Shown here: piece after piece, positions 6,601 through 60,996 of the stretch | Layout of the letters: each line of letters opens with the position of its first letter | Position numbering within the stretch: position 1 is the first letter of the stretch | Source: Myxococcales bacterium | GTDB lineage: Bacteria; Myxococcota_A; SURF-8 | NCBI GenBank assembly: GCA_003598065.1 | Contig: QZKR01000128.1 | Coordinates: 1 to 64,000 of the forward strand | Direction: 5' to 3' | Length of the DNA stretch: 64,000 nucleotides | Program-made: the position numbers and the translations under genes | Notes under the pieces: model-generated | Databases searched by the model: none | What the model saw: the letters and a program-made list of their open reading frames with translations, nothing else | Told to the model about the DNA's origin: nothing

Positions 6601-6602
6601 GC

Positions 6603-7193: not shown

Positions 7194-7239
7194 GGGTCTC
7201 TCCTTTGCCGGTCCTACGGGAAGGCGAAACTGCTGCGGG

Positions 7240-10476: not shown

Positions 10477-10499
10477 GGCGGCGCGCCGCGCCGAACGCC

Positions 10500-11717: not shown

Positions 11718-11721
11718 AGGC

Positions 11722-13053: not shown

Positions 13054-13105
13054 GCCGCCATTATCGGGAGAGAGACGGCGACGGTCAAGGCGCGCGGAGT
13101 ACCGC

Positions 13106-38474: not shown

Positions 38475-38680
38475 GACGAGATTCGCCTTCTGTGCAGATT
38501 TGCTTAAACATTCCTAGCCATTGGCCGAATTAATTGCAAGGGAAAACGCCCCGCAGGGCCGGCGTTTGCCCTGGGCATCCTTAATTACGGCAGACGGCGT
38601 TGCGCCCGTTTTCGCTGGGAGGGAACGGGGCGCGATGCGTTCGAGCATTCAGCCGGGATGTGCGCCGCGCGGAGGAAGGC

Positions 38681-39680: not shown

Positions 39681-41411
39681 ATGCCCTTACACCTGCCTTC
39701 CTCCTCCGGGTCGCCATCGACCATGGCGATGGGGCTCGTCAAACGCCTCGCCCTCCCCGTGCTCGTGCTGTTCGCCACGCTTTACATCGGCCTGGGGATC
39801 CTGGTTTTGCGGACCGAGACGGACCTCGCCGACATTCGCGCTCAAACGGCCGCCGCCGGCGCGGCCGCGCAGGCGTCGCTCGCCGAGATCGAGCGAACCG
39901 TCGAGGATTCCTCGCCCGACGCCGGATCGCAAACGGCGCTGCGCCGCATCGGCGCGTCCGTGGAGCGGCTTGCCGACGCGCTGACGGCCATCGACGGCAA
40001 GGCCGAGACGCTCCATGTTCTCTCCCTGGCCTTCCTGGTCCTGGGCGCGATCGTCGGCGCGGCGCTGTTCATGTTTTTTCGGCAGATCGCGCGGCGCTGG
40101 GTGGGCGATCCGCTGACGGAAATGCTGCAAACCGTCGAGGCGGTCCGGGGAGGCGAATCCGACCGCCGCATCGTCCTGGCGCGCCTGCCGCCGGAACTCA
40201 ACGGGCTGGGCCAGGCCTTGAACGCCATGCTCGACGCGCTGGCCGAGTTCGCCGAGAGCGAGGAGAGCCAGAAGCGGCTGCAGGCGAACGTCATTCAGCT
40301 TCTGGAACTGGTCAGCCGGGCGGCGGAGGGCAATCTCGCCCAGCGCGGGCGCGTCACGGGCGACGCCCTGGGACCGGTCATCGACGCCGTCAATCTGATG
40401 CTCGACAGCATCGCGGCGCTCGTCGTCAAGGTGAAGGAATCGGGCCAGCTGGTGGCGCACGCGGCGGCGGCGATCCTCTCCGCCTCGCGCAAGATCGGCG
40501 ACGACGCCAAGCGCCAGGCGCGCGAGATTCAACGCGCCGGCGCGCTGGCCCAGACGGCCCTTCGCCAGGTGCAGCGTGTTTCGCTCACGGCGGATGCGGC
40601 GGCCGACGAATCGCAGAAGGCGGCCGGGCACGCCGGACAGGGGCTCGCCAAACTGGGCGAGTCGGTCCAGAACATGCAGCGCATGCGCGCCAACGTCCAA
40701 TCGACCTCGAAGACGATCAAGACCCTGGGCGACCGGGCTCTGGAAATCAACGCCATCGTCGAACTGATCAACGACATCTCGGCGCGCACCAACATCCTCT
40801 CGCTCAACGCCGCCATCGAAGCGTCGAAGGCCGGCGAGCAGGGCAAGGGCTTCGCCGTCGTCGCCGACGAGATCCGCAAGCTGGCCGAGCGCACGAGCGC
40901 CGCCACCAAGGAGATTTCCCGCTACATCGAAGACATCCAGATCGAGACGAACGACGCCGTGCTGGCCATGGAAGAAGTGACGCGCGAAGTCGAACTGGGC
41001 TGGACGCAGAGCGAGCAGACCGGCGCGCTGTTGCGCGACATCGAGGCGGCGGTCGGCCGCGCCGCCGCGAAGATCGTGGAAATCTCCGAAGCGGCCGGCA
41101 AGATGGCGTCCCAGATGGACCTCGTCGCCGAGGACGTGAAATCGATGGCTCAGGCGAACCACGAAACCGGCGAGAACATTCTGCGCACGACCGGCGAACT
41201 GCTCAAGCTGCGCGCGCCCCTGGGCGGCCTGAGCGCGGCGGTCCGCGCCTTCCGCCTGCCGCCGAGGCTGGAGCAGGATTTGCAGGACGACTGGTCGGCC
41301 TTTGTCGAAACGGCGTCGATCGCGGGAACCGGCGCGGCTTCCGCTGCGACGACGACGGCCGAAGCGGGAGAAAGCGGCGCGCCAGGCGACGACGGCGCGG
41401 CGGCGCGCTGA
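39681..41411 (+). CDS. Methyl-accepting chemotaxis protein, short periplasmic domain
   Basis: 576 residues. Two membrane helices (about residues 24-44 and 113-133) enclose a coiled periplasmic segment of about 70 residues, too small for a standard ligand domain. A HAMP-like region follows, then the signalling hairpin with the tip [21 protein letters not shown] near residue 385, matching the universal MCP core E[13 protein letters not shown]. It resembles PilJ or FrzCD-type receptors more than nutrient receptors. The C-terminal 40 residues are Ala/Gly-rich and lack a pentapeptide for CheR. It lies 12 bases behind cheW and 12 bases before the CheA-like gene. Confidence 0.9.
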
Positions 41412-41423: not shown

Positions 41424-44400
41424 ATGGACAGGTATCCGGTCGCTCCCACGCTGTTGCGCATCTTCGCGACGGAGTCGGCCGACTACCTCGCCGGCATCCG
41501 CCGCCTTCTCGCCGCCAACGCCGGGCGGACGCTGGGCGGCGATGCGGATTCGCTGCCGATCTACAACATGCTTTCCAATCTGAAAAGCGCGGCGGAAATG
41601 GTGGGCCTGCGCGAAGCGGCGGCGCTGGCCGCCGAACTGATCGCCGCCTACAATGCGCACCGCAAACAGCGGCGCGCCCTGGCCGAATTCGCCTCCGCCG
41701 CCGAAGCCCATCTGGCGCGATTGGAAGCGCTGGTGGCGCAGGCCGACCCCGAAGCCCGATCCGCCGGAGCGTCGGAGGCGGCGGTCGTCCCCGCCGTCGT
41801 GCTCAATCAGGACCTGAAAGCGTTGTTTCATGTCCGCGCCCGCGACGATCTCGCCGGGCTGCGCGCCGCCGTCGAGGAGTTGACGCGCCGTCACGCCGAT
41901 TCGCTCGCCGCCGGCCGCGTGTTCGGATTTCTGGTCAACATCAAGACGGCGGCGGCGATGATCGACCACTATCGGCTCGTCACCGTGGTCGAGCGGGCGA
42001 TGGCGGTTCTGGAGCGCGTCGAACAGGGGGGGCTTTCGTTCGACGGCGACGCCTCGCTTTTTTTCGAAATCGCCCTGGAGACGATGGCCGATCTCATCGA
42101 GCGCGCCGGCGAGGACGAAACGGCCGACGGCCAGCGGCTCGACGCTTTCCTGCGCGAAACGGACCCTCTGCTGCCCGCCGTTTTCTCCGCTTCGGCCGAT
42201 GAAGACGAAGACGAGCCGCTTATGGAGGGGTTAACGGCGTCGTCCTTCCACGAGCAGCTTGCGGGCATCTTCCGCGGCGAGGGCGCGGAGCATTTGAACG
42301 AGCTGGCCCGGCTGATTCTGCGGGCGACCGATGCGCCCGCCGATCCGGAGGTGGTGGCGCGCCTGTTCCGCGTCGTCCATACGCTCAAAGGAGCGGCGGC
42401 CACGGCCGGCTTCTCGTCTCTCGCCGACGCCGCGCACGAACTGGAAAACCTGCTCGACCGGCTGCGCGCCTCCGGCCAGCGCATCGACGAAGCGGCGCTC
42501 GACCTGCTGGTCGAGGCGGAACGGAAATTCCGCCGGCTTCTGGATCTCGACGCCGAAAGCGACGAGGCGGCCCGAACCGCCGAGGCGCTCAAGACGCGGG
42601 TGCGCGCCGTGCTCGGCCCCTCGTCCGGCGACGCGGAAGGAGCCGCTCCGACGCGATCGGACGGGGAGGAGGCGCTTCCCGAACCGTCGCCGGTCGATCA
42701 TTTCGTCCGCGTCCCCATCGCGCGGCTGGATCAGCTGATGAGCCTCGTGCGCGAACTGCACGTCCACCGCTCAAGGCTGGACGAGATCGCCGGAACGTTC
42801 TCCGGCGTCTCCAAAAAACTCAAGTGGGAGCGGCGAAATCTGCAAAAAAGCATCGGCGATTTCCAGCGCAAACATCAGTGGGAGCTTCCCAATTTTGGCC
42901 GGGCGAAGCTCGACGGCGCCGATTTTTCCGATCTGGAATTCGACCGTTACTCCGACCTCGCCGTGCTGTCGCGCAACCTGGAGGAGGTCGATTTCCGCAT
43001 CGCCTCGCTGCTCGGGCGGCTGGAAGGGCTCATCGGGCGTTTCGTCGAGGACGGCCACGCCTTCGGCGCGCTGATCGCCTCGCTTCAGGACGAAATGGTC
43101 CAGGTGCGCATGGTCCCCCTGGAGGCGTTGTTTTTGCGCATCGACTATCAGACGCGCAGCCTCGCCCGCTCCCTGGGGAAGAAGGTGCAGGTGATCGTCC
43201 AGGGCGGGCAGACCGAACTGGACAAGCGGCTTGTCGATGCCTTGGGCGACGTCATGGTCCACCTCGTCCGCAACGCCCTGGACCACGGCGTCGAAGCGCC
43301 GGACGAGCGCCTGCGGCGCGGCAAGCCGCCGGCGGGAACGATCCGCCTGTCCGCCGCCCAGGAGGAGCGGAACGTCGTCATCGCCGTCCAGGACGACGGC
43401 GCGGGCATCGACCCCGACCGCCTCGTTCAGGCGGCCCTGCGCGCCGGCGTCCTTTCCGCCGAGGAAGCCGCGCAAAAATCCCGCGACGACGTCTTGAACC
43501 TGATTTTCCACCCTCGCGTCAGCACGCGCGACGAGGCCGGCCGGATCTCGGGCCGGGGCGTGGGCATGGACGCGGTGCGGCAGACGATTTCCGATCTCTA
43601 CGGCTCGATCCACGTCGAATCCGAAAGCGGCGTCGGCACGCGGCTGGTCATCCGCCTGCCGCTCACCCTGGCCGTGCAGCCGATCCTCTCCGTTTCCGCC
43701 GAAACGCACGGCTTCAACGTCCCGATGGCCTACGTCGAAACGATCCTTGACGCGGTTTCGCCCCGCCAGGGCGCGGACGGTCGGCCTGCGTTGCGGCATG
43801 GGGAGGAGGAGATGCCGCTCGCCTGGCTGGCGGGGTTTCTGGAATTGGAGCACGACCGCGACCCCACGGGCCACCCCGTCGTCGTGTTGCAGGTCGGCGG
43901 CCGGCGTCTGGGTCTCGTCGTCGATGCCGTGACCGGCCGCGAAGAAGGCATTGTCCGGCCGCTGTCGCCGCTGTTCGAGGCCCTCAATCTCTTCCAGGGC
44001 TACACGCTCACCGCCCAAGGGGAAATCGTTCTCGTTCTCAATGTGCCGATATTGTTCGAAGTCGGCCAGCGGCGGCGGCAGGCGGAGGCCGCGCCGGGCG
44101 AAATCGCGGAGCGGATCAAAGTTTTGATCGCCGACGACAGCCTCTCCGTCCGCCAGACGATCAAGTTTCTGCTGGAGAAATACGGCATCAAGGCGAATAC
44201 GGCCAAGGACGGCCTGATCGCCTGGCAGAAGTTGAACGGCATCCGCCCGCATCTGGCGATCATCGATCTGGAAATGCCCAATTTAAACGGCTACGAACTC
44301 ATGGATCTTATCCGTCAACACCATGAATTTTCTCAGCTTCCAATTCTTGTGCTCACCTCCCGGGGCGGGGAAAAGCACCACCAGAAGGCTTTGGCCGCCG

Positions 44401-44519
44401 GCGCCGACGGTTTTCTTTCCAAACCGGTGCTGGAGCGCAAGCTGATCGCCGCCGTAAGAGACGCCCTCCCGCCCGCTTTAGCGGCTCTTCTCGACGCCTC
44501 CAACCCGATCCGACCATGA
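41424..44519 (+). CDS. Hybrid CheA-type histidine kinase with three Hpt domains (two inactive), CheW and receiver
   Basis: 1031 residues. Three Hpt-like helical bundles come first. The phospho-His position is Ser51 in MLSNLKSAAEMVGL, Val171 in LVNIKTAAAMI and His319 in VHTLKGAAATAGF, so only the third can be phosphorylated. Residues about 430-520 are a P3-like dimerisation segment. The ATPase part has HLVRNALDHGVEAP (N box), VQDDGAGIDPDRL (G1), GRGVGMDAVRQ (G2) and ESGVGTRLVIRLPLTLA. A CheW-like domain follows to about residue 880. A receiver domain has Asp948 in LAIIDLEMPNLNGYE and a full Lys at SKPV. The layout matches ChpA/PilL or FrzE-type kinases used for surface motility, more than swimming-type CheA. 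Confidence 0.92.
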   Translation: MDRYPVAPTLLRIFATESADYLAGIRRLLAANAGRTLGGDADSLPIYNMLSNLKSAAEMVGLREAAALAAELIAAYNAHRKQRRALAEFASAAEAHLARLEALVAQADPEARSAGASEAAVVPAVVLNQDLKALFHVRARDDLAGLRAAVEELTRRHADSLAAGRVFGFLVNIKTAAAMIDHYRLVTVVERAMAVLERVEQGGLSFDGDASLFFEIALETMADLIERAGEDETADGQRLDAFLRETDPLLPAVFSASADEDEDEPLMEGLTASSFHEQLAGIFRGEGAEHLNELARLILRATDAPADPEVVARLFRVVHTLKGAAATAGFSSLADAAHELENLLDRLRASGQRIDEAALDLLVEAERKFRRLLDLDAESDEAARTAEALKTRVRAVLGPSSGDAEGAAPTRSDGEEALPEPSPVDHFVRVPIARLDQLMSLVRELHVHRSRLDEIAGTFSGVSKKLKWERRNLQKSIGDFQRKHQWELPNFGRAKLDGADFSDLEFDRYSDLAVLSRNLEEVDFRIASLLGRLEGLIGRFVEDGHAFGALIASLQDEMVQVRMVPLEALFLRIDYQTRSLARSLGKKVQVIVQGGQTELDKRLVDALGDVMVHLVRNALDHGVEAPDERLRRGKPPAGTIRLSAAQEERNVVIAVQDDGAGIDPDRLVQAALRAGVLSAEEAAQKSRDDVLNLIFHPRVSTRDEAGRISGRGVGMDAVRQTISDLYGSIHVESESGVGTRLVIRLPLTLAVQPILSVSAETHGFNVPMAYVETILDAVSPRQGADGRPALRHGEEEMPLAWLAGFLELEHDRDPTGHPVVVLQVGGRRLGLVVDAVTGREEGIVRPLSPLFEALNLFQGYTLTAQGEIVLVLNVPILFEVGQRRRQAEAAPGEIAERIKVLIADDSLSVRQTIKFLLEKYGIKANTAKDGLIAWQKLNGIRPHLAIIDLEMPNLNGYELMDLIRQHHEFSQLPILVLTSRGGEKHHQKALAAGADGFLSKPVLERKLIAAVRDALPPALAALLDASNPIRP

Positions 44520-44880: not shown

Positions 44881-47800
44881 ATGGAAAAGCAGATCCACAA
44901 CTACTTGAAGATCCTCGAAACCTCTCCCGACAACGTCCCGGCCTTCAAAGCCCTGGCCAAGATCTACCAAGACCACGAGCGATGGGGGGAATTGGCGAAT
45001 CTGTATGTCGCGAAGGCACAGCGCACCTCCAACAAAGACCAGATCCCCGACCTGCTGTTTATGGCGGCCGAAATCTACGCCGAGCGGCTGGCCAAGTACG
45101 ACCGCGTCGAAGATTGCTACATGATGATCCTCGAAACCGATCCGCTCAACGTCCGCGCCCTTGAAGCGTTGAAGAAGCGATATCGCGAAAGCCACCAGTG
45201 GGACCAACTTATCCATCTTCTGGAACGGGAAGCGGAGCATCGCCCCGAGGCGGGGCAGAAAGCCGATTGCTGCACCGAGATCGCCGCGCTCTGGTCGGGC
45301 GAGCTCAACAACGAAGAGAAACAGGTGGCTTATCTGATCAAGGCGCAGGAGGCCGCGCCCGATCATCTTCCTTCCCTGCGCCAGTTGAAAGCGTACTACC
45401 TCAAGACCTTCCAGGTGGACCGCGCCATCGCGCTGGTCGAACGCGAGGAAGCGCTGCTGACGAAAGACGCCGACAAGGCGGATTTGTATCTGGAAGTGGG
45501 CTTGCAGCTCGCCGAGGATCCCTTCGAGCGCGAGCGCGCCATCCACTATCTGGAACGGGCGTCGCAGTCCAACAAGAAGAAAAAAACGGCGAAAGACAAG
45601 ATCAAGGAGCTGATCGAACTCGACCGCAACTGGGAGGCGCTCACCCGGAAATACCAGGAAGAGGCCATCCAGGTGTCGGACAAGCGCGACGCCTCGGCGA
45701 TCTATCTCAAGATTGCGGGAATCCTTTTCCTCTACTCGCCGCAGAACCAGGAAACGATCCTCTCGACGATCGAGAAGAGCCTGATTCTCGATTCCTCGAA
45801 CCGTCGCGCGCTGCTTTTGGGCGAGCGCTACCTGTCGGATCACGGCCTGTGGGAGAAGCTCGCCGAATTCTACCGCGACATCTACGAGCGGACGCGCGAC
45901 GAGGCGCTGAAGGTCGAGGCGATGGGCAAGGCGGCCGTGCTGCTGCACGAGAAGCTCGGCCGCGCCGGGGACTCGCTGGCCTTGTCGCGCAAGGTCATCG
46001 AACTCAACCCCGACCACGTCGGCGCGTTCAACCGCGTCCGGGAGGACATGGAAGGGCGCGGCGCGTGGGACGAACTCGCCGCCCTGCTGAACGACCGCCT
46101 GCAGCGCTGCCACGAAGTGTCGGCGAAGATCGACACTTACGTCCAGCTGGCCCGCCTCGCCGTCGAGCGCGAGAACTCGCCGGAAAAGGCCATGCAGCAC
46201 CTGGAGAAGGTGTTGGAGCTTGCGCCCGGCCACCTGGACGCGTCGCGCCGTCTGGTGGAGCTCTACGAGCAGGCCCGGCAGTGGGACAAGCTTCTGTCGG
46301 TCTATCCCGCCGTGCTCGCCGCCGCCGATCCGGCGGCGCGTCTCGCTCTCGAACGGCGGCTGGCCGATTTGCTGAAAAACCAGGTGGGCCGGCCGAAAGA
46401 GGCTTTCGCCCATTACGCCGCCGCCTTCGCCCTCGATCCGCAGGACGCCGAAATTTTCCGGCTTCTGGAAGAACTGGCGATCGAACTGGAATGCTGGGAA
46501 GACCTGGTCGGCCTCCTGAAGCGGATCGTGGACGCCAAGGACCGCCCCGCCAACTGGCGCGAACTGAAATTCAAGCTCGGTCAGATCTACGACAAGGAAC
46601 TGTCGCAGTACGATCAGGCCGAAGTCTGCTATCGCGGCCTGCTCGACGAACAGGTCAACCTCGAAACGCTCGACGCCCTGGCCCGCCTGTACGCCAAGGA
46701 CCTGCGCTGGGACAACCTCGTCGAGGTTCTGGCGCTCAAAGCGAAGACGACGCGCGATCCGGAAGAGCGGCGCGAGGTGCTGCTGGAGAGAGCCCGTATT
46801 TTCGAAACGGAAGTCGGCGACAAGCCGCGGGCGATCGAGGCGTTCAACGAAGTCCTCGCCGTCGCCCCCTCCGACCTCGACGCGCTGCGCAGCCTGGCCG
46901 AGCTTTTCGAGTCGGCCGGACAGTGGCGCGAACTGGTGGCCACGCTGGAGCGGGAACTCGACGTCATCACCTCGATTCCCGAGAAGATCAATCTCAACTT
47001 CAAGCGCGGCGCGATCTTCGGCGCGAAACTGAACGACAAGGAATCCGCCGCGCGCGCCTTCCTCGCCGTTCTGGAATTCGACAAGGGGCACCTGGCGGCG
47101 ATCGGCAACTTGGAGGACTACCTCAACGAGGGCATCCTGCCCGACGAAATTTTCAAGGGCCTGGAGGATTACTACCGCCGCCTGGAGCGCTGGGAGAAAC
47201 TGGCCCAGGGCTACGAGGCGCTGTTGAAGGTCGAAACCGACGAGGCGGCGAAGGGCGCGCTGTACCATAAGCAGGCGGAGGTGTTCCTCCTGCATCGCTC
47301 CCTGCCGGCGGAGGCCTTCGCCTACGCGGCGCGCGGCCTGCAGACGCCGTATCACAACGCCGAGTTTCTGAAGCTGTCCCTGGAAGCGGCGCGCAAGATC
47401 GGCAAGCAGGCCGAGCTTCTGTCGCTGCTGGACGACAAGGCGGCCAAGACGAAAAAGCCGCAGGAAAAGGCGCGGCTGGCGCTCTCCCTCGGCCGCCTCT
47501 ACTGGGAAGGCATGCAGGATCTGGAGCAGGCCGAACGGCATTACGCCGCCGCCGCCGAGGCCGCGCCGGAGGCGGCCGAGGTTCTGGAGCAGACGGCGGC
47601 CTTCTTCCGCGGCACCGAAGCCTGGCAGAAGTTCGTCGTCTACGCCGACCGGCTCGCCGCCGCCGCCGAGCCGGAACGCGCCAAGGCCGTGCTTTTCGAA
47701 ATGACGGAGGTCTTTTCCGGGAAGCTAGACCGAAACGACGAGGCCCGCTCGCGCCTGCGCACGATCCTCGCCGCCGACCCCGCCGACATGCAGGCCATCG

Positions 47801-50800
47801 ACCGCCTGCTCGTTCTTTTGGAGGCCGACGGCGTCTGGGACGACGTGGCGCTGACGCTCGTCGATAAGCTCGACCGCACGGCGGACCCCGTCGAACGGAC
47901 CGCGCTCAAGCTGCGGCTCGCCGGCGTTCTGGAAAAACACCTTGAAGACTACGAGGAAGCGGCCCGCCTTTACGGCGACATCCTCGCCGAGGACCCCCGC
48001 CACGCGGAGGCCTTCGCCCACATGGAGCGATTCCTCAACGACGGCCGCGCCGAGAAGCGCGCCGCGGACACCTTGCGGCCGATCTACGAAGACCGGCGCG
48101 AGTTCGACAAGCTGATCCAGGTGTTGACCGTTCAGCACCGTTTTGCGGAAGGCGACGCCGCCTATCAGCTCGCCGTGCGCATCGCCTCGCTCTACGAGGA
48201 GGAAATCGGCGACCGCGCCTCGACCCTGGAATGGTACGGCAAGGCTTTCCTCGCCGGTTCGGGCATCGGTCTTCTGAAAGAGTTGCAGCTCGCCGCCGCC
48301 GCGGCGCGCGACTACGCGCGTCTGGTGGGCTTCGGCGACGAGAAGCTCGGCCAGTCGCTGCCGACCGGCGAGCGCGTCGAACTGCTCTTCGCTCTCGCCG
48401 ACGTGCAGCGCCATCAACTGGCCGACGCCGACGGCGCCCGCTCCCGCTGCCTCGCCGTGCTCGCCGCCCAGGCCGACAACGAAACGGCGATCGACACGCT
48501 GATCGAACTGGCGCGCGGCCGCGAGGACTATCCGGAACTGGCTCGTTTCCTGGAAGAGAAACTGCGCGTCGCCGGGGAGAAAAGCGCGCGCCGGCAGGCG
48601 GCGCTGGAGATCGCCGAGCTGCGTTTCCGCCGCCTGGGCCAGCCGGACGAAGCCGTCGCGCTGCTGCTGGAGCTGATGGAGGAACGGGAAAACGATCCGC
48701 AGGTGTTCGAGCAGCTGGAAACGATCTATCGCGAGACGGCGCGCTGGACCGAGCTTCACGAACTCCTCTTGCGCAAGCTGAAATACCTGCGCGAGGACGC
48801 CGAAATCCTGCCGGTGAAGATTCAGATCGGCGCGATCCTCGAACAGCGGATCGGCGATCTGGAAAAGGCGATGGAAGTCTACATGGAACTCATCGCCAAC
48901 TACTGGTCCTACCCGGCGGTGGGCGAACTCGTCGATCGGCTGCTGATGCAGGAGACGACGCAGCTGGCCGTCGCCAACGAGATGGACCAGAAGTACATCA
49001 AGGTCCAGGACTGGCAGCGGCTCGTGCAGGTCTACGAGATCCAGATCCGCCACGCCAAGGCGCCGAACGAAAAGACCGCCCTGCTCATCAAGCTGTCGGC
49101 CGTCTACCAGGAGCGTCTGCAGGACCCGCAGAAGGCCTTCGACGGCTTCTCGCGGCTGTTCATCGAGGATCCGAAGAACCAGAGCGCGCTGGAAGAGCTG
49201 GAAAAGCTCGCCGGCGAACTGGGCGCCTGGCGCGAACTGGCCGAGGTCTACGAGAAGGCGGGCGAAGGCTCGCCGGAGGCGGAAGAGGCGATCGGCCTGT
49301 TCGTCAAGGCGGCGCGCCTTTACGAAGACATCCTCGCCTTCCAGGACGACGCGATCCGCGCCTTCCGCAAGGTGCTCGACCGCGACCGCAACAACATCAC
49401 CGCCGTGCAGGCGCTGGAAGGCCTGTGCCGCAAGACCGAGCGCTGGGAGGACCTGCGCGACATCTACCTGCAGCGCATCGAACTCACCGACGACGGGTTG
49501 GAGAAGAAGGAACTCTTCACCAACATCTGCATTCTCTACGAGCACCAGCTTGAAGATCCGCTGGGCGCCGCCCCCTATTACGAGGCGATCCTCGAACTCA
49601 CGCCCGACGATCTGGAGGTCATCGACAAACTGCTCGAACTGAACGCCCGGCTCGAACGCTGGGCCAACCTCGCCGAACTCTATTCGATGAAGCTCGCCCT
49701 CGTCGATTCCTTCATCGAAAAACACAACCTCATGCTGGAGAAGGCGGATCTGCACGAAACGCGGCTCGCCGATCCGGTCACGGCCAAGGATCTCTACAAA
49801 ACGGTCCTCGACGCCGACCCGGGCAGCACCCATGCGCTGGCGAGACTGGAGCATTACGTCGAAGACGGGACGTTCCAGGCCGAGCTGGCCCGCTTCCTCG
49901 CGCCCTTCTACCGCGAGCGCGAAGACTGGCATCGTCTCATCGACATGGAGGAATACCAGTTCAACCACAGCGAGGTCGGCGACGAACGGCTGGAGCTTTT
50001 GATCGACGTCGCCGCCGTTTACGAAAACGCGCTGCGACAGCAGCCGCTGGCTTTCTCCGTGCACACGCGCGCCTTCCGCGAACGGCCGACGCACGCCTTC
50101 GTCCAGGCGGAACTGGAGCGGCTGGCCGGTCAGCTCGGCAAATTCGACGAGCTGGTGAAGCTGTACGAAGAACTGATCGAGCAGTTCGCCCCGGAACGCG
50201 ACGCCGAAACGATGGTCGGCCTGCTCTTGAACCTCGCCAATCTCTACGAGACCTATCTGCAGCAGGTCGAGGAAGCCGCGAGCCGCTACCGGCGCGTGCT
50301 CCGCCTGCATCCCAACCATGCCGAGGCGCTCGGCCATCTGGAGCGCATCTACTCCCTGCAGAAAAAATGGCCGGAACTCATCGACGTCCTGAACCGCAAG
50401 CTCTCCATCACGGAGGATGTCGAGCGGCAGAAGGCGATCCTCTTCCAGGCCGCCAACATCTACGAGGACGAACTCGGCAAGAACACGGAAGCGATCGCCG
50501 TCTACCACCGCATGCTGGACATCGACGCGCGCGACTCGGACGTGCTGCGCGCCCTGGTGCGGCTGACGACCAACGAGCAGCAATGGGACGAGCTTGTGGC
50601 CGTGCGGCGGATGCAGCTGGACATCGCGGCCGACGACGACGAGCGCTGGTCGCTGCGTCATCAGATCGGCATGGTCCTGTGGCGCAAGCTGAATCGCACC
50701 GACGAGGCGATCGGCGTCTTCAAGGGCGTCCTTGACGAGAACCACGCTCATTCCCTCGCCCGCGAAGCGATGGAGGGGTTGCAGGCCGAGCCGGCCTCCG

Positions 50801-53800
50801 AACTCGCCGCCGCCCGCATCCTGGAGCCGCTCTACGCCGAGGAATCGCGCTGGGACGAACTCATCCACGCCCTGGACATCCAGGCCGCCCACGCCGAGGC
50901 CGGCGGGGAGCGCCGCGACCTCTGCCTGCGCATGGCCGAACTCGCGGAAGCGCGGCTGTCCGATTTCAAGCGCGCCTTCGGTTTCACCGTCCGCGCCTTC
51001 GCCGCCGACGCCTTCAATCCGGCGATCCGCAGCCAGCTGGAGCGTCTCGCGCCGGCGGCCGACGCCTGGGTCGATCTCGCCCTGGCCTACCGCCGCCGCG
51101 CCGAGGCCGTTACGGAAGCCCGCGAACAGGTGGACCTCTATCTCAACGCCGGCCGCGTGATCCTGCGCCAGATCGACGATCCGGAGGAAGCCGAGGCCGA
51201 CTACCGCGCCGCCAGACAGCGCGACCCGCAGAACGCCGCCGCCCTCGACGCCCTGGAGGAAATCTTCGACCGCTCCGGCAAATGGACCGAACTCGTCGAT
51301 GTTCTGTTCACCAAGGCGCAGTTGGCGTCGGAGGTCCCGGCGAAAGTGGCCCTCTATTCCCGCACGGCCGAAATCCGCGAACAGCGGATGGGCGACAAGC
51401 CGGGGGCCGTCGATTCGCACCTCAAGGCGCTCTCCGTGGATCACGTCCACGTTCCGTCGCTGGTGGAACTCGACCGTCTGTACGGCGAATTGGAGGACTG
51501 GCCGTCCTTGAAGAGCATCCTCACCCGCCGCGTCGCCCAGGCCGCGAACCTCGACGAGCGGCTGGAACTCAAATACCGCATGGGACAGGTCGTGGAGGAA
51601 AAACTCGCCGACCGCTCCGGCGCGGCGGCCGTCTACCGCGAAATTCTGGACGAGCACGACGAGCACCCCGACGCCATCCTGGCCCTGGAGCACATGGTCG
51701 TCGTGGACCGTCAGCTGCAGGCGACGGCGCTCGACATCCTCGCGCCGCTCTACGAACGCAAGCGCTGGTGGGATCAGCTCGGCGATCTCTACGAATCGCA
51801 GCTTTCCACGCTCGCGGACGCCGGCGAACGCATCGCCGTTCTGGCCAGGATCAAAGACATCTACGAGCAGCAGCTTTCCGATCTGCCGCGCGCCTTCCAC
51901 GTCGCCTGCCGCCTTTTCCAGGAGGACTACCACAACCTCCCGGCGCGCCAGGAGATGGAACGGCTCGCCGTGGCCACCGGCGGTTTCGAGGGGCTGGTCC
52001 AGACCTACCTCTCGTTCTTCGATCAGATGAGCGATCCGGCCCTCAAGGTCGAGATCCAGATGAAAGTGGCGCGCGTCTACGAGGAGCAGCTGCAGAACGA
52101 CGTGCAGGCGATCGCCCATTACGGCAAGGTGCTGGAACTGGAGCCGAAAAACTTCACGGCCATCCTCGCCCTGGACCGCCTCTACGAACGCATGGAGCGT
52201 TTCAGCGACCTGGTGGCCCTCATCCCGCGCGAATTCGAGATTTACGACGACCCGAAGGAGCTCGTCGAACTCCGGCTGCGCCTGGGCCGGCTGTGGGAGG
52301 AAAAACTCAGCGACCATCTCACCGCCATCGAGGTGTACCGCCAGGTGACCGACGAGCACCCCGACAACGCCGAGGCGCTCTCCGCCCTGGAACGGCTGTA
52401 CGAGGCGGGAGGTTTCTGGGAGGAGTTGATCGAGGTCTACAAGGCCGAGGTGCGCATCGCGCGCGGCGATACGAAAAAGGCCCGCCTCTACACGAAAATG
52501 GCGCAGGTTCTCTACGACAAGCTCAGCCGCGCGAAAGAAGCCATCCCGCTCTGGAACCGCGTGCTGCAGTTCGACGAGCAGAACACCGCCGTGCTGGAGA
52601 AGCTCGAAGAACTCTACGAGGCGGAGGCGATGTGGGACGACCTCGTCAACCACCACAAGCGCCGCCTGCGCATCGCGCGCGGCCCCGAGGAGCGGGCGCT
52701 CATCACCCGCAAGATGGGCCGCCTCTACCTCGACCGTCTGCAGCAGGAGGACATGGCCACCCAGTTCTTCCTCAAGGTGCTGGAATACACGCCCGGCGAC
52801 CTGGAGACGATCGACACCCTGGAGGCCATCTATCTCAAGAACCAGTCGTGGCGCGAACTGGCCGAACTGCTGAAACGCCTCATCCCGCAGGTGTCGGGCG
52901 CGGATCTGCGCTCCCTCTACCTGCGGCTGGCTTCGATTCTCGTCGAGCGGCTCGGCGACGCGAAGGAAGGCGAGCGGCTCGCCTCGCTGGCGCTGGCCAT
53001 GGAGCCGACGCAGGCCGAACTCGCGCGGCTGGAACAGCTTTTCCGCGCCACGCAATCCTACGGCATCTACCTGGAGGTTCTGGAGCGCCAGAGCCAGATC
53101 GCCGAAGAGGAGCCGGCCAGGATCGCCCTCTTCTTCCGCATGGCCGACATCTGGCGCGAGAAGCTGGGCAAGGTCGATAAGGCGCGGCATTGCCTGGAAC
53201 GGATCCTGGCGATCCGCGCCAACCACCTCCAGGCCGCCGAGGCGCTGGAGCCGATCTATCGCGACGCCGGCATGCATCGCGAACTGATCGCGATGCTCTC
53301 CATCCGCCTTTCCGAAGCGTCCGCCGCCGCCGAGCAGGCGGCCTTCAACCGCCAGATCGCGGCGATCCACGAGGAAAAACTCGGCGACGCCGCGGCCGCC
53401 CTCGATGCGCTGTTGCCCGTCTTCCGCTTCGATCCGTCCGACGAGGCGCTGCTCGCCCATCTGGAGGACCTCGCCGACCGCACCGGCCGCCACCTCGACG
53501 TGGTGCGCAGCGTCCGCGACGCCCTGCCGCAGGTGGACGACAACCCGAAGCTGAAGCGCGCCCTGCTGTTCAAAGTGGCGCAGCTTTACGAAGACAAGGC
53601 GCAGAACCGCGACCTGGCCGCCGAATACTTCAAGATGTTCCTCGAAGCCGGCGAGTACAACGAGCACGCCGCCGACTTCCTCATCGCCTACTACGAGGCG
53701 GTTCAGGAGTGGCGCGAACTGGTGGCCGTCTACCAGCTCAAGCTGCCCTACATGGCCCCGGAGGAAAAAGTCGTCGTCGGCTGCCGCGTCGCCTACATCT

Positions 53801-56800
53801 TCGACGCCCACATGGGCGAGACGGACCGGGCGGTCAAAACCTACCGCCAGGTGCTGAAGATGGACGACGCCAACATGGAGGCGATCCACGCCCTGATCGG
53901 CATCTTCCAACGCACCGGGCGTTTCGAGGAACTCGTCGATCAGCTGCGCCACGAACTGCACATCGTCAGCGATCCGGAACGGATCAGCGCCATCCGCCTG
54001 CGCATCGCCCAGACCTATCAGGACAAGATCGGCGACCTCTCCCAGGCGAAGACCTACTATCGCGCCATCATCGCCGACAACCCGAAGCACCACGAGGCGC
54101 TGGACGCCCTGGAGCGCATCTACGAGGCGGAGGAGAACTACGACGAACTCTTGGAAGTCCTCTCCCGCCGCGTCAACGTCGCCGACGAGGACGCGCAGAA
54201 AATCGCCCTCTACAACAAGATGGCCGACATCTGGGAGCGGAAATTCGACCAGCGCGACATGGCGATCAGCTACATGGAGAAAATCCTCGCCATCGATCCG
54301 TCGAACATTCCGGCGATCGTCAACCTGGAGCGCATCTACCGCACCGCCGCCGACTGGCCGCAGCTCGCCGCCACCTACCAGCGGCACATCGACCAGACGA
54401 TCGATTCCGACGAGATCGTGCGGCTGTTCACGGAAATGGGCCGCATCTACGGCGAATACCTCTTCCAGCCGGTCAAGGCGATCGAATACTTCAACAAGGC
54501 GCTGAAGATCGACGAAAACAACATCGCCGTCATGCTCGCCCTCTCCGAACTCTACATCGCCAACGAGAAGTGGGGCGAGGCGATCAAGATCCTGCGCCAG
54601 ATCGCCGACGCCAGCCAGGAGAAAGCCCAGCGCGTGGAAGCCCTGGCGCGGCTCGGCAACATCTACCTCGACCATCTCGGCGACGCCGAAAAGGCCAAGT
54701 CGGTGTTCGATCAGATGATCGGGATCGATCCGGCCTTCGTCCCCGCCCTGCGCGCGCTGCGGCGCTACTACGCGGTCGTGAAGCAGTGGAAGCAGTTCCT
54801 GAAAACGGTGGCGAAGGAGAAGAAGCACGTCGTCGAGCCCGACCAGAAGGCCGAACTGCTCTACGCCGAGGGCCGCTACTACCACGAGGAGGAGCACGAC
54901 GCCGACCGCGCCCTGGGGCTCTACCGCGAGGCGCTGGGGCTCGTTGACAATTATCCGCCCGTCCTGAAGATCCTGGGCGAGATGTACTTCGAAAAACAGG
55001 CCTGGGACGAGGCGCGGCCGGTTCTGGAACGGCTGCTGCAAAGCGTCGCCCAGCTCGACGAAGCGACCCAGGCCTCCGTCCACTACCGCCTGGCGTTCAT
55101 CGCCGAGCGGGAGGACAACGACACCGAAGCGCTCAAGCATTACACCGCCGCCTACAAGATCGACTCCAACAACCTGCCGACCCTGGAAGGCCTGGCGCGG
55201 ACGCTCTACCGCCGCGGCGACTGGGACCGCGCCTTCCGCGTCTACCAGACGATCCTCGTGCGCTTCCGCGACCAGAAATCGGTGCCGGAACTGGTGGAGA
55301 TCTTCTGCCGGTTGGGCGACGTCAACGGCCAGCTCGGCAAGGACGACGTGGCCGTGCGGATGTACGAGAAGGCGTTGGAACTCGATCCGCGCTCCGTGCG
55401 CGCCCTGAAGGCGATCGTCTTCTTCTACGAATCGCTCGCCAACTGGAAGAAGGTGCTTCAGTACCGCGGCCGGCTGATCAAGCTCGTTGCGGGAGACGAA
55501 CTCTTCGACCAGTGGGTGGCGGTGGGCGACGTCTACTCGGAAAAACTGGGCAACGTCGAGAAAGGCCTCGAAGCCTATCGGCATGCGCTGGAGATCAACA
55601 CCCAGAACGTGCAGTTGCTGTGCAAAGTGGCCGATCTGCTCTTGGCCACCGGCCATTACGACGACGCGATCGGCGTGCTGCGCTCCGCCGTGTCGATCGA
55701 GAAGGAAAACGAAAGACTCATCGAGCTCAACGTCAAGCTCGGCGATCTCGTGCGCCAGCACGGCAAGAACCCCGCCGACTGCCTCGATTACTACAACGCC
55801 GCGCTCGACGTGGACAGCTACCGGATGGATATCTTCCAGGCGATCGAACAGTTCCTGGCGGAACGGCAGGACTGGGATCTTCTGGACGGCAGCTATCGGC
55901 TGATGATCGCCCGCATTCCGCAGGACGAGAAGGGCCGGCGGCTGGCGATGTGGAAGAAGCTCGGCATGCTCCTGGCCGAGCGGAGCACCAACCTGGAGGA
56001 CAGCATCAAGGTGTGGGAGGTCGTGGCGCAGTTGCAGCCGGACGATCTCGCCTCCAAGGAACGACTGGCCGATCTCTACGCCAAGTCGCCCCAGCACCGC
56101 GAAAAGGCGGTGCAGATGCACCGCGAACTGCTCGTCGATGCGCCGGAGCGGGTGAACTCCTACCGCGCCTTGTGGAAGATCGCCTACGAGGCGGAGGAGT
56201 TCGACAAAGCCTTCTGCTACGGCGCGGTCGTGCACCTCGCCGGCGAGAAAGAAGCCCCGGCGGCCGAGTTCTACCGGGAAAACCTGCAGGACGTGAAGGC
56301 CGAGGCGATCAACACGCTCGACCGCCAGCTTTGGGGCACGCTGCTTCTGCACCGCGACGCGCGGCACAACGTGGGTCAGATCCTGACGATCCTCTTCCAC
56401 CATGTGCAGGAGCTCATGCCCTCCGATCTGCGCAAGGAGAACCTCAAGCGCAAGGACCGCCTCGATCTCGACGAGCACATCGGTTTCTGCCTGACGACGA
56501 GCTACATCCTGAAAACGCTCGGACTGCCCGCCCCCGAAATCTACATGAAGAAGGGCTTCGGGCCGGGTATCCAGGTGCTGGCGGTCCAGCCGGCCGCCGT
56601 GCAGATCGGCGCCGACGCCTTCGAGAATTTCCCGCGCCGCGAACTGACCTTCCTGGTGGCGAAGAGCATGGTGCTGGCGCGTCCCGACTTTATGATGGCG
56701 CTGATGCTGCCCGAGGAGCAGGTCCGGGGGCTTCTGGACGCCGCAACGCAGTTGTTCGACGCCAACTTCAAATCGACGGCCGCCGGCGTGGACGTGGCGG

Positions 56801-57111
56801 GGCTCAAGAAGCGGATCGACCGCGCCGTGCCGCGCAAAGTCCGCGAACCTCTCGCCGGCTTCGTGTCCGAGTACGCCCAGATGGCGGGACAGTTCGACAT
56901 CGGCAAATGGCGGCAAGCGCTCCTGTTGAGCGCCTGCCGGGCGGGCCTGCTGATGAGCAACGATCTATCGACGGCCGTGACGACGCTGAACGCGCATCGC
57001 GCCGGCCTCACCGACGAACAGGTGAAAGCGATTATTTCCGACATGACGGCGTTCGGCGTCTCGGACAGCTACTTCCACATGCGCAACTTCCTCGGCTTCT
57101 CGCTGGTGTAG
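44881..57111 (+). CDS. Giant cytoplasmic TPR-repeat protein (4076 residues), GltI-like
   Basis: One unbroken 12.2-kb gene with AGGAAAGGG about seven bases before the ATG. It has no signal peptide or membrane helix. From residue 1 to about 3780 the protein is a solenoid of TPR pairs; the double unit is about 70 residues with a Trp-x-x-Leu in one helix, a Leu-Gly-x-Leu/Ile-Tyr-turn in the next and A-x-x-x-Y/F-x-x-x-L-x-x-x-P in the third, so roughly 55 double units. The last 290 residues are different (RRELTFLVAKSMVLARPDFMMAL is one strong segment) and seem to be a separate domain. In Myxococcus xanthus the gliding protein GltI is also a huge TPR protein encoded next to gltJ (agmX); the next gene here has the GltJ layout. 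It could be a platform linking motors to adhesion complexes. A generic TPR scaffold is the fallback. Confidence 0.9.
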   Translation: MEKQIHNYLKILETSPDNVPAFKALAKIYQDHERWGELANLYVAKAQRTSNKDQIPDLLFMAAEIYAERLAKYDRVEDCYMMILETDPLNVRALEALKKRYRESHQWDQLIHLLEREAEHRPEAGQKADCCTEIAALWSGELNNEEKQVAYLIKAQEAAPDHLPSLRQLKAYYLKTFQVDRAIALVEREEALLTKDADKADLYLEVGLQLAEDPFERERAIHYLERASQSNKKKKTAKDKIKELIELDRNWEALTRKYQEEAIQVSDKRDASAIYLKIAGILFLYSPQNQETILSTIEKSLILDSSNRRALLLGERYLSDHGLWEKLAEFYRDIYERTRDEALKVEAMGKAAVLLHEKLGRAGDSLALSRKVIELNPDHVGAFNRVREDMEGRGAWDELAALLNDRLQRCHEVSAKIDTYVQLARLAVERENSPEKAMQHLEKVLELAPGHLDASRRLVELYEQARQWDKLLSVYPAVLAAADPAARLALERRLADLLKNQVGRPKEAFAHYAAAFALDPQDAEIFRLLEELAIELECWEDLVGLLKRIVDAKDRPANWRELKFKLGQIYDKELSQYDQAEVCYRGLLDEQVNLETLDALARLYAKDLRWDNLVEVLALKAKTTRDPEERREVLLERARIFETEVGDKPRAIEAFNEVLAVAPSDLDALRSLAELFESAGQWRELVATLERELDVITSIPEKINLNFKRGAIFGAKLNDKESAARAFLAVLEFDKGHLAAIGNLEDYLNEGILPDEIFKGLEDYYRRLERWEKLAQGYEALLKVETDEAAKGALYHKQAEVFLLHRSLPAEAFAYAARGLQTPYHNAEFLKLSLEAARKIGKQAELLSLLDDKAAKTKKPQEKARLALSLGRLYWEGMQDLEQAERHYAAAAEAAPEAAEVLEQTAAFFRGTEAWQKFVVYADRLAAAAEPERAKAVLFEMTEVFSGKLDRNDEARSRLRTILAADPADMQAIDRLLVLLEADGVWDDVALTLVDKLDRTADPVERTALKLRLAGVLEKHLEDYEEAARLYGDILAEDPRHAEAFAHMERFLNDGRAEKRAADTLRPIYEDRREFDKLIQVLTVQHRFAEGDAAYQLAVRIASLYEEEIGDRASTLEWYGKAFLAGSGIGLLKELQLAAAAARDYARLVGFGDEKLGQSLPTGERVELLFALADVQRHQLADADGARSRCLAVLAAQADNETAIDTLIELARGREDYPELARFLEEKLRVAGEKSARRQAALEIAELRFRRLGQPDEAVALLLELMEERENDPQVFEQLETIYRETARWTELHELLLRKLKYLREDAEILPVKIQIGAILEQRIGDLEKAMEVYMELIANYWSYPAVGELVDRLLMQETTQLAVANEMDQKYIKVQDWQRLVQVYEIQIRHAKAPNEKTALLIKLSAVYQERLQDPQKAFDGFSRLFIEDPKNQSALEELEKLAGELGAWRELAEVYEKAGEGSPEAEEAIGLFVKAARLYEDILAFQDDAIRAFRKVLDRDRNNITAVQALEGLCRKTERWEDLRDIYLQRIELTDDGLEKKELFTNICILYEHQLEDPLGAAPYYEAILELTPDDLEVIDKLLELNARLERWANLAELYSMKLALVDSFIEKHNLMLEKADLHETRLADPVTAKDLYKTVLDADPGSTHALARLEHYVEDGTFQAELARFLAPFYREREDWHRLIDMEEYQFNHSEVGDERLELLIDVAAVYENALRQQPLAFSVHTRAFRERPTHAFVQAELERLAGQLGKFDELVKLYEELIEQFAPERDAETMVGLLLNLANLYETYLQQVEEAASRYRRVLRLHPNHAEALGHLERIYSLQKKWPELIDVLNRKLSITEDVERQKAILFQAANIYEDELGKNTEAIAVYHRMLDIDARDSDVLRALVRLTTNEQQWDELVAVRRMQLDIAADDDERWSLRHQIGMVLWRKLNRTDEAIGVFKGVLDENHAHSLAREAMEGLQAEPASELAAARILEPLYAEESRWDELIHALDIQAAHAEAGGERRDLCLRMAELAEARLSDFKRAFGFTVRAFAADAFNPAIRSQLERLAPAADAWVDLALAYRRRAEAVTEAREQVDLYLNAGRVILRQIDDPEEAEADYRAARQRDPQNAAALDALEEIFDRSGKWTELVDVLFTKAQLASEVPAKVALYSRTAEIREQRMGDKPGAVDSHLKALSVDHVHVPSLVELDRLYGELEDWPSLKSILTRRVAQAANLDERLELKYRMGQVVEEKLADRSGAAAVYREILDEHDEHPDAILALEHMVVVDRQLQATALDILAPLYERKRWWDQLGDLYESQLSTLADAGERIAVLARIKDIYEQQLSDLPRAFHVACRLFQEDYHNLPARQEMERLAVATGGFEGLVQTYLSFFDQMSDPALKVEIQMKVARVYEEQLQNDVQAIAHYGKVLELEPKNFTAILALDRLYERMERFSDLVALIPREFEIYDDPKELVELRLRLGRLWEEKLSDHLTAIEVYRQVTDEHPDNAEALSALERLYEAGGFWEELIEVYKAEVRIARGDTKKARLYTKMAQVLYDKLSRAKEAIPLWNRVLQFDEQNTAVLEKLEELYEAEAMWDDLVNHHKRRLRIARGPEERALITRKMGRLYLDRLQQEDMATQFFLKVLEYTPGDLETIDTLEAIYLKNQSWRELAELLKRLIPQVSGADLRSLYLRLASILVERLGDAKEGERLASLALAMEPTQAELARLEQLFRATQSYGIYLEVLERQSQIAEEEPARIALFFRMADIWREKLGKVDKARHCLERILAIRANHLQAAEALEPIYRDAGMHRELIAMLSIRLSEASAAAEQAAFNRQIAAIHEEKLGDAAAALDALLPVFRFDPSDEALLAHLEDLADRTGRHLDVVRSVRDALPQVDDNPKLKRALLFKVAQLYEDKAQNRDLAAEYFKMFLEAGEYNEHAADFLIAYYEAVQEWRELVAVYQLKLPYMAPEEKVVVGCRVAYIFDAHMGETDRAVKTYRQVLKMDDANMEAIHALIGIFQRTGRFEELVDQLRHELHIVSDPERISAIRLRIAQTYQDKIGDLSQAKTYYRAIIADNPKHHEALDALERIYEAEENYDELLEVLSRRVNVADEDAQKIALYNKMADIWERKFDQRDMAISYMEKILAIDPSNIPAIVNLERIYRTAADWPQLAATYQRHIDQTIDSDEIVRLFTEMGRIYGEYLFQPVKAIEYFNKALKIDENNIAVMLALSELYIANEKWGEAIKILRQIADASQEKAQRVEALARLGNIYLDHLGDAEKAKSVFDQMIGIDPAFVPALRALRRYYAVVKQWKQFLKTVAKEKKHVVEPDQKAELLYAEGRYYHEEEHDADRALGLYREALGLVDNYPPVLKILGEMYFEKQAWDEARPVLERLLQSVAQLDEATQASVHYRLAFIAEREDNDTEALKHYTAAYKIDSNNLPTLEGLARTLYRRGDWDRAFRVYQTILVRFRDQKSVPELVEIFCRLGDVNGQLGKDDVAVRMYEKALELDPRSVRALKAIVFFYESLANWKKVLQYRGRLIKLVAGDELFDQWVAVGDVYSEKLGNVEKGLEAYRHALEINTQNVQLLCKVADLLLATGHYDDAIGVLRSAVSIEKENERLIELNVKLGDLVRQHGKNPADCLDYYNAALDVDSYRMDIFQAIEQFLAERQDWDLLDGSYRLMIARIPQDEKGRRLAMWKKLGMLLAERSTNLEDSIKVWEVVAQLQPDDLASKERLADLYAKSPQHREKAVQMHRELLVDAPERVNSYRALWKIAYEAEEFDKAFCYGAVVHLAGEKEAPAAEFYRENLQDVKAEAINTLDRQLWGTLLLHRDARHNVGQILTILFHHVQELMPSDLRKENLKRKDRLDLDEHIGFCLTTSYILKTLGLPAPEIYMKKGFGPGIQVLAVQPAAVQIGADAFENFPRRELTFLVAKSMVLARPDFMMALMLPEEQVRGLLDAATQLFDANFKSTAAGVDVAGLKKRIDRAVPRKVREPLAGFVSEYAQMAGQFDIGKWRQALLLSACRAGLLMSNDLSTAVTTLNAHRAGLTDEQVKAIISDMTAFGVSDSYFHMRNFLGFSLV

Positions 57112-57191
57112 GCAGGTGCGGACGCGGGAGCCGGACGCCAAGGGAGGTGTTGCGATATTTGGGGGAGGAACACGCGCTAAATACCCGAAAG

Positions 57192-57221
57192 TTGACCCCA
57201 AAAGGCGTTTCATGTTATGAG
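57192..57221 (+). promoter_or_regulatory. Candidate promoter for the GltJ-like gene
   Basis: TTGACC (57192-57197), an 18-base spacer and TATGAG (57216-57221), 5 of 6 and 4 of 6 consensus bases. It lies 44 bases before the ATG and 80 bases after the giant gene's stop. Confidence 0.45.
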
Positions 57222-57265
57222 GTTGCGTCGTGAAGGCGCATGTCCAGCGGTAGGTGCAGGCGGCC

Positions 57266-58912
57266 ATGAGAGTTCAATGCGAAAGTTGCCAGGCGACGTA
57301 CAACGTGCCCGATGAAAAGGTGGCGGGGCGCTCGTTCCGCTTCCCTTGCAAGAAATGCGGCGCGACCGTCCACGTTCGACCGGAACGGCGCGAAGGCGGC
57401 ATGACCATGGAACTGCCGGCCGCCGATGTTCAGCCGCGCGCCACGCGGATGATGACCGCTCAGGAGCCGGTTGACGAGATGGGCAAAACGCAATTCGCGC
57501 CGATGGAATCGGGCCGCGTCAAACCGTCTCCGGCGCCGCCGGCCAGGCCGACCGCACCGCCGGCGGATCGGCCGAAACCGGAACCCGCGCCTCGGGAGGA
57601 AAAGCCGAAGCCGGCCGCTCCGCCGAAACCTGCGGCTCACCCGGCCGGCGGACCGCCGACGCCCCCGGCGCAGAAATTGATGCCGGTGTGGTATCTGGCG
57701 TTCGGGGGCAACCGCCAGGGGCCTTACACCGTCGAGCAGATCGATCAGGCGCTCAAGCGCGAGCAGCCGAAAGGCGAGATCCACGTCTGGCGCAACGGTT
57801 TCGACGCCTGGAAGAAAATTCAGGACGTTCCCGAATTCGCCGCGAGCCTGGCGCAGCCGAAGGCGGCCAAGCACAAGGCGGCTCCGCCCGTCGCGCCGGT
57901 GGAGGTGCCCGAGTCGCCGGTCGATGCGGCCATGTCCAAACCGGCCGCCGACGTCGCGGCGCAGGCTTCGAAGCCCCGTCCGACCTTCACCGAACTGATC
58001 AAGCACGAACTCGGCGAGGCGGTCGAAGCGCCGTCGGAGACGGGGACGCAGAAAATCGACATTTCCCAGCTTTTGCAGACCGAAACGGTCCGGAAGGAAG
58101 AGGATCCCCAGAAGAAGGCCGCGCCGAAAAAGGACGTCAAGATTCAGGAGTACGTCCCGCCGGTAAAGAAGAAAATCCCCTGGGTGCCTATCGGCATCCT
58201 CATCTTCCTGTTCGCTCTCGTCGTCGGCACGCCGCTGACCCTGGCCTACAAGCAGATCATCGAAATTCCCGGCCTGGACAAGGCCCCCGTCATCGGCAAG
58301 TTTTTCAAGAAGGAAGAAATCGACCGCTACGCCCTGTTGCGCGAGCAATGGGAGATGCTGGTCAAAATCGACGAGGCCAAGGTGGCCTTGCAGGCCACCA
58401 AGGAAGAGGAAGAGCGGCAGCGCATCGAGGAGGAGGAAAAGCAGGCGGCCTTGGAGAAGCAGGCCCGCGAAGCGCGCGCCCAGGAACGGCGGCGGCAGTT
58501 CGCGGCGCACGGCGGCCAGGGCCCGGCGAACGGCGGGGGAGGGGACGTCCAGGAATTCGACTTCTCCGGCGGCGAGGAAGGCGACGAGATGGAAACGTCG
58601 GGCTCTCTCGCCACTAACGACATGGAGCGCAGGCAGCCCCTTTCCCAGGCGGAGGTCAACAAAACGATCAAGGCCAACATGGGCCGCATCGCTTCCTGCG
58701 TCCAGCAGCAGAAAAAATACGGCGCGGTCAGCGGCACCATGGCTGTCCGTTTCACCGTGAGCCGGCGCGGCTCCGTGGTCCGCGCCTCGGTGGTGACGCC
58801 GAAGTTCCAGGATACTTACGTAGCCGACTGCGTATCGGCGACGATCGAGCGGATCCGCTTCCCGCGTTCGGGCGGCTCCGTCACCGTCGATTATCCCTTC
58901 ACCGTGCAGTAG
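57266..58912 (+). CDS. GltJ/AgmX-like protein: zinc ribbon, GYF domain, TM helix and AgmX/PglI C-terminal domain
   Basis: 548 residues from the ATG at 57266; a GTG four codons earlier is weaker. Residues 2-37 are an MJ0042-type zinc ribbon (VQCESCQATYNV, then CKKCG). A Pro-rich linker (residues 85-140) leads to a GYF_2-type domain from Trp142 (WYLAFGGNRQGPYTVEQIDQ, with the GPYT turn, to about 192). A single membrane helix lies at about 305-328 after the basic KKK. A charged coiled coil (about 345-415, EEEERQRIEEEE) and a C-terminal TonB-like/AgmX-PglI domain end it (LSQAEVNKTIKANMGRIASC to SVTVDYPF). This order is the one I know for GltJ (AgmX) of Myxococcus, where the ribbon binds MglA-GTP. 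The preceding gene is a giant TPR gene, as in gltI-gltJ. Confidence 0.88.
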   Translation: MRVQCESCQATYNVPDEKVAGRSFRFPCKKCGATVHVRPERREGGMTMELPAADVQPRATRMMTAQEPVDEMGKTQFAPMESGRVKPSPAPPARPTAPPADRPKPEPAPREEKPKPAAPPKPAAHPAGGPPTPPAQKLMPVWYLAFGGNRQGPYTVEQIDQALKREQPKGEIHVWRNGFDAWKKIQDVPEFAASLAQPKAAKHKAAPPVAPVEVPESPVDAAMSKPAADVAAQASKPRPTFTELIKHELGEAVEAPSETGTQKIDISQLLQTETVRKEEDPQKKAAPKKDVKIQEYVPPVKKKIPWVPIGILIFLFALVVGTPLTLAYKQIIEIPGLDKAPVIGKFFKKEEIDRYALLREQWEMLVKIDEAKVALQATKEEEERQRIEEEEKQAALEKQAREARAQERRRQFAAHGGQGPANGGGGDVQEFDFSGGEEGDEMETSGSLATNDMERRQPLSQAEVNKTIKANMGRIASCVQQQKKYGAVSGTMAVRFTVSRRGSVVRASVVTPKFQDTYVADCVSATIERIRFPRSGGSVTVDYPFTVQ

Positions 58913-60748: not shown

Positions 60749-60996
60749 GGTTTCTCTCCTATCTGCGGTCCGCTCGTCGGTTAGATGATTCCGAGAGGCC
60801 GTCTATTTCAATGAAGCTTTAGCAGATGACGCCCCGCGATGCAACCGCCCCGACGGGCGATTGTCGCGGGCTTGTCGGCTGGACAAACTATCGGTCCTTT
60901 GGCAGAATCAATCCGTTTTCCGGACAAAAGGCGCCGGGGGCGTTGCTCCGGAGGTGCGCGGCGCGCAAAGCCCGAATGCCGCGTGGAGGCGGAAGC

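Follow-up and report, generated by a model that had tools for sequence, protein, structure and literature searches.

A predicted GltI/GltJ-type gene pair, diverged from that of Myxococcus, in an uncultured family of Myxococcota

The window analyzed here is a stretch of 64,000 nucleotides (contig QZKR01000128.1, positions 1 to 64,000 of the forward strand) from the draft genome of a Myxococcales bacterium. Two adjacent genes of the window, at positions 44881–58912, are on the evidence of their sequences a diverged GltI/GltJ-type pair in an uncultured family of Myxococcota. The first encodes a giant tetratricopeptide repeat (TPR) protein and the second a protein with a zinc ribbon, a GYF domain, one membrane helix and an AgmX/PglI C-terminal domain. 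GltI and GltJ are both required for gliding in Myxococcus. The pair is probably a component of an Agl/Glt-type machine. The host likely has a gliding machine or a related envelope machine, because genes for most of the other machine parts are present in its genome. Use of the pair for gliding rather than for another surface function is plausible, at slightly under an even chance. The features of the pair are as follows.

44881–57111, + strand: GltI-type giant TPR protein, 4076 aa, predicted cytoplasmic, with a 72-residue double-TPR super-repeat
56311–57108, + strand: conserved non-TPR C-terminal domain of the giant, 266 aa, no Pfam family, AlphaFold pLDDT 91.7
57266–58912, + strand: GltJ-type protein, 548 aa; the reading frame is also open from a GTG at 57254
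57266–57385, + strand: zinc ribbon (CxxC-CxxC), Zn_ribbon_4; best solved match is the GltJ zinc ribbon (7zok)
57689–57838, + strand: GYF_2 domain; best solved match is the GltJ GYF domain (7z3c)
58175–58246, + strand: single membrane helix, about residues 304–327, with the N side probably cytoplasmic and the C side periplasmic
58640–58906, + strand: AgmX/PglI C-terminal (myxo_SS_tail) domain, over the NCBIfam cut-off

The giant TPR protein and its C-terminal domain

The giant open reading frame displays codon-position GC values of 0.70/0.35/0.87, which is the pattern of a real gene. An antisense open reading frame of 3063 aa at positions 47725–56916 (− strand) lies opposite to it, but was rejected as a shadow of the high third-position GC. 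The giant is predicted to be soluble and cytoplasmic because it has no visible signal peptide and no 19-residue window above 1.43 on the Kyte-Doolittle scale; no membrane helix was found. Searches with Pfam and NCBIfam gave essentially TPR-type repeat families alone, and no GltI model turned up in the NCBIfam scan. Self-alignment displays strong periodicity at 72 residues and harmonics at 144 and 216, and the super-repeat unit consists of two TPRs per 72 residues.

The sequence is collinear with the giants of eleven other genomes, with 24%–48% identity over 2,300–3,900 residues, and the 72-residue period is common to all eleven. The giant has the features of GltI, being one TPR protein of about 4000 aa with neither a signal peptide nor a membrane helix. 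It is assigned to the GltI type because the collinear homology extends over thousands of residues, and because its terminal domain is shared with giants found in gltG-type clusters. The host genome also has a second protein, of 1748 aa, with the same C-terminal domain and the 72-residue TPR period (locus L140, contig C2, positions 8101–13347). It belongs to a paralogue size class that is found in many relatives.

The last 377 residues of the giant were used as the query against a sample of 141 genomes of the phylum, and the terminal domain was matched in 78 of these. Many of the matches end proteins of 3,300–4,200 aa, and other matching proteins fall into classes of about 1,800 aa and about 750 aa. 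The invariant residues of the 266 aa domain are R, G, S, R, L and G. A Pfam search with the domain gave no family match. The AlphaFold model is confident (predicted local distance difference test, pLDDT, 91.7), and a Foldseek search with this model gave no significant solved structure, with no match below E 0.15. The sub-threshold list includes the metallopeptidases BlaR1, BepA, HtpX and Ste24. By eye, the equivalent of the HExxH helix is RELTFLVAKSMVL, which is without the catalytic residues. Alignment with four E. coli M48 proteins by hhalign covered the same segment and was not significant (P = 0.33). Identity as a dead M48-type peptidase was dropped since neither search is significant, and is kept as a lead only. 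The modeled domain may nevertheless display a dead metallopeptidase-like fold, the resemblance to M48/M56 being weak, non-significant and without HExxH.

The GltJ-type protein

The second gene is on the same strand, 154 bp downstream of the giant; the ATG at 57266 is a better start than the GTG at 57254, and the codon-position composition is of the coding type. The Pfam cut-offs are passed for Zn_ribbon_4 (40.1 against 30.3) and GYF_2 (47.1 against 25.8), and the AgmX/PglI C-terminal domain scores 66 against an NCBIfam cut-off of 40. The order is zinc ribbon, GYF, one membrane helix and AgmX/PglI tail, with a charged stretch after the helix that by eye resembles a coiled coil. The first-pass annotation had described the two proteins at these coordinates from the letters alone; the 4076 aa length, the lack of a signal and the domain order were all confirmed.

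The best matches of the second protein in the PDB are M. xanthus GltJ domains, i.e. the zinc ribbon 7zok (2.8e-6) and the GYF domain 7z3c (7.2e-5). In NCBIfam the GltJ model (90.8 bits) is ahead of the GltG model (46.8 bits), and both scores are below the cut-offs of 450 and 650 bits. The protein is thus named GltJ-type and not a GltJ equivalog. The GltJ equivalog cut-off (NF033761, 450 bits) was reached in none of the 141 phylum genomes. A search for GltJ in 284 genomes with a strict E-value also found none, but the controls were blank too, so this result proves nothing.

A tree of the tail domains (56 rows, 92 columns) pairs the second protein with a protein from G001 (96/85), the only other genome of the same family. 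The two are inside a branch of zinc ribbon-GYF proteins (94/98) that is apart from the tails of FHA-GltG proteins. The first-pass annotation had named clustering of this tail with unrelated TonB-like proteins, and not with GltJ, as evidence against the identification; this tree, which does not include M. xanthus GltJ, did not refute it. The GltJ-type assignment follows from the PDB matches, the tail tree and a glt-type cluster in genome G003 in which a zinc ribbon-GYF gene comes after the giant.

Several zinc ribbon-GYF proteins (e.g. L016, L089 and L095) have in their linkers a motif of the type acidic-T-[RQ]-[VI]-[FY], which resembles the phosphothreonine motifs of FHA ligands. No clear copy of it is present in the window protein, and the G001 protein is almost without a linker.

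Gene order in relatives and the chemosensory array

Cluster G1 of M. xanthus ends with gltI (4132 aa) and, immediately after it, gltJ (674 aa) (PMC3169522). G003 (JAADFL010000025), which like G001 is a deltaproteobacterial metagenome-assembled genome placed in Myxococcota, displays the order GltE-like, CglF/GltF, GltG-like, TPR lipoprotein, giant TPR and GltJ-like gene, the last with zinc ribbon, GYF, helix and tail. CglF/GltF is over its cut-off (100.5 against 90) and the GltG-like gene scores 500 against 650. A frameshift in the draft splits the GltJ-like open reading frame of G003, which was read through solely for the profile scan. A search of named genomes with a three-row alignment matched G001 and G003 only.

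Upstream of the giant, 9 of 10 other genomes read have a GltG-type gene whose N terminus is FHA-like, and a TPR lipoprotein usually sits between the two. A zinc ribbon gene is next to the giant in only two of 30 giant loci, those of the window and G003; many of the loci have an RsmI-like gene instead. In several Myxococcota (L110, L123, L124 and L125) a zinc ribbon-GYF protein follows GltD-GltE-like genes and has GltJ scores of 131–191 bits. These four loci resemble a D-E-J module, with the GltJ-type protein in the place of GltG. Since the giant and GltG-type genes often adjoin in the phylum sample and the zinc ribbon-GYF protein is mostly elsewhere, the distribution suggests either an ancestral I-J link with frequent losses or a link that arose more than once.

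This distribution also bears on the possibility that the second gene is an unrelated zinc ribbon-GYF regulator that lies beside the giant by chance. Proteins of this architecture are common in the phylum, mostly away from the giant and often behind GltD-GltE-like genes; the adjacency is rare, as counted above, and is lost in G001. However, it recurs in the glt-type cluster of G003 and in the M. xanthus G1 cluster, and with few family members per genome such a coincidence is unlikely. The tail and both cytoplasmic domains also match the GltJ type. A chance neighbor is therefore considered improbable, and the GltI/GltJ-type pair is the preferred reading.

The pair is preceded by a chemosensory array.

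38600–39076, + strand: single-domain response regulator
39153–39668, + strand: CheW
39681–41411, + strand: membrane methyl-accepting chemotaxis protein (MCP) with HAMP and MCP signaling domains
41424–44519, + strand: CheA-response regulator hybrid kinase, two Hpt domains; 361 bp separate it from the GltI-type gene

These genes are co-directional with the pair, and array and pair could be read as one regulatory unit in which CheA output directly sets the assembly of a GltIJ platform, as compared with Frz, which acts at a distance in M. xanthus. However, no such array precedes the giant in any relative whose upstream side was read. The 361 bp gap also speaks against one tight transcript; a terminator scan of it gave no signal clearly beyond chance. 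A single unit of this kind appears doubtful. There is similarly little likelihood of the fuller proposal, in which gltI-gltJ left a glt cluster and joined a chemosensory operon, CheA directly controls focal-adhesion platform assembly, and the GltI scaffold ends in a dead metallopeptidase-like binding domain.

To the right of the pair are a phosphomannomutase-type gene on the opposite strand and a sensor kinase. Positions 60826–63468 of the window encode a histidine kinase that combines PAS domains with a solute-binding domain of family 3. Positions 28715–31237 encode a predicted protein carrying three protease inhibitor domains of the Kazal type, which are unusual in bacteria.

Partner genes and comparison with known systems

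The host genome contains MglA/MglB, AglRQS, GltC/D/E/G and GltH types, most of them below equivalog cut-offs. The MglA protein is 67% identical to the query and its PDB matches are MglA; mglB adjoins. MglA is identified here by the structures that the host's own protein matches in the PDB. On contig C66, AglR/AglQ/AglS-like genes lie together with a GltG-like gene beside Wza/Wzc-type genes. This locus (L066, positions 4691–13772), with its neighboring polysaccharide export genes, recalls an Nfs/Exo-type arrangement. On C124, GltC-, GltD- and GltE-like genes reach the contig end, and C66 may be its continuation. C44 has an OMP_myx_plus beta-barrel gene upstream of gltC, then GltC (247 against 450), GltD and GltE-like genes, again up to the contig end. 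C8 starts in a GltG tail, which is followed by CglE/GltH over its cut-off (142 against 70). GltD, GltC, GltE and GltG thus each have two homologues in the host. The tetranucleotide profile of the partner contigs fits the window, less clearly for C44.

ExbB/TolQ loci on C10, C19, C35 and C158 were dropped as AglR candidates as they adjoin ExbD- or TonB-type genes. A piece of contig C19 (L071) has a GC content of 0.58 and a tetranucleotide distance of 0.28, which is unlike the window, and it is possibly contamination of the draft.

The absence of MglA-, AglR- and GltD-type homologues from the genome had been put forward in the first-pass annotation as evidence that would count against a GltI/GltJ identity; all three types are present. 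The wider set that it had listed was recovered for mglA, mglB, aglRQS, gltD, gltE, gltG and gltH types, but not for gltF. The GltI/GltJ equation itself holds as a family assignment, through homology, PDB matches, the tail tree and G003, and does not extend to the GltJ equivalog.

Several observations weigh against the reading as a GltI/GltJ-type pair of an Agl/Glt machine. The second protein has 90.8 of the 450 bits of NF033761. In the tail tree, which has few columns, the GltI-adjacent tail of G003 is a long branch outside the zinc ribbon-GYF group of the window protein. The pair in the host is detached from other glt genes, and in G001 the GltJ-like gene lies on a separate contig among different neighbors. 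Host GltC (247/450), GltE (123/225) and GltG (192/650) are all below cut-offs, and GltF (CglF) was not found in the host genome, though its expected place falls where the assembly presumably has a gap, between contigs C44 and C8. The partners are spread across a draft of 183 contigs with 5% contamination. Finally, the GltG tail of C8 groups (90/91) with tails from genomes in which no giant with the C-terminal domain was found.

The pair may instead belong to a non-gliding Agl/Glt-like envelope machine similar to Nfs, which serves spore-coat formation in M. xanthus, with the host assembling or moving surface polysaccharide. The host's only AglRQS-like motor adjoins Wza/Wzc-type export genes, core complexes occur in non-gliders, and Nfs is the closest Glt paralogue (PMC3169522). 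However, M. xanthus nfs is without GltI, GltJ and GltK (PMC3169522), so that the presence of both I and J types is a mark of the gliding copy, and the host also has MglA/MglB. This alternative is unlikely, though less so than a chance neighbor, and the absence of I, J and K from Nfs makes gliding plausible.

In the preferred reading, the pair would encode two parts of an Agl/Glt trans-envelope machine, a cytoplasmic scaffold of the GltI type and a connector of the GltJ type in the inner membrane. In M. xanthus, the cytoplasmic domains of GltJ engage MglA-GTP and adaptors. By analogy with M. xanthus, the one helix would anchor the GltJ-type protein in the inner membrane, and its zinc ribbon and GYF domain would bind a platform of MglA-GTP, the giant TPR scaffold and cytoskeleton adaptors. 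The periplasmic tail would couple to the AglRQS motor and to envelope parts of the GltC/D/E/G/H types encoded elsewhere in the genome, and MglA-GTP/MglB would set the sites at which the complex is assembled and disassembled. Binding partners, force transmission and gliding are all putative for this pair.

The analysis places a diverged GltI/GltJ pair, together with most of its partner genes, in a family of uncultured Myxococcota. It had been suggested that, if the host is outside the classical gliding myxobacteria, the module is older or wider than usually pictured; this applies only to an unsampled family within the phylum, because the host belongs to Myxococcota and GltI/GltJ had been described there across Myxococcales, in Sorangium, Haliangium, Plesiocystis and Anaeromyxobacter as well as Myxococcus (PMC3169522). 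The pair provides comparative material on conserved features, i.e. the 72-residue double-TPR array, the unnamed C-terminal domain and the zinc ribbon-GYF-helix-tail order, and helps tell the needs of the gliding copy from those of a general Agl/Glt core.

Compared by published description, GltI (AgmK, MXAN_4863) is like the window protein a giant TPR protein (4132 against 4076 aa) without signal peptide or membrane helix and with a GltJ-type gene next to it (PMC3169522), but the window giant is linked to a chemosensory array and not to gltD-H. GltJ (AgmX, MXAN_4862) shares with the second protein the zinc ribbon, GYF domain, single membrane helix and AgmX/PglI tail, and its zinc ribbon and GYF domains are the closest structures; the window protein is shorter (548 against 674 aa) and well below the equivalog score. 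The G1-type cluster of G003 has the same giant TPR and zinc ribbon-GYF succession, whereas GltE-like, CglF/GltF, GltG-like and TPR-lipoprotein genes come before its giant. The Nfs sporulation system of M. xanthus has GltC/D/E/G-type parts, as do C124 and C66 of the host, but is without GltI, GltJ and GltK (PMC3169522), while the window has both the I and J types.

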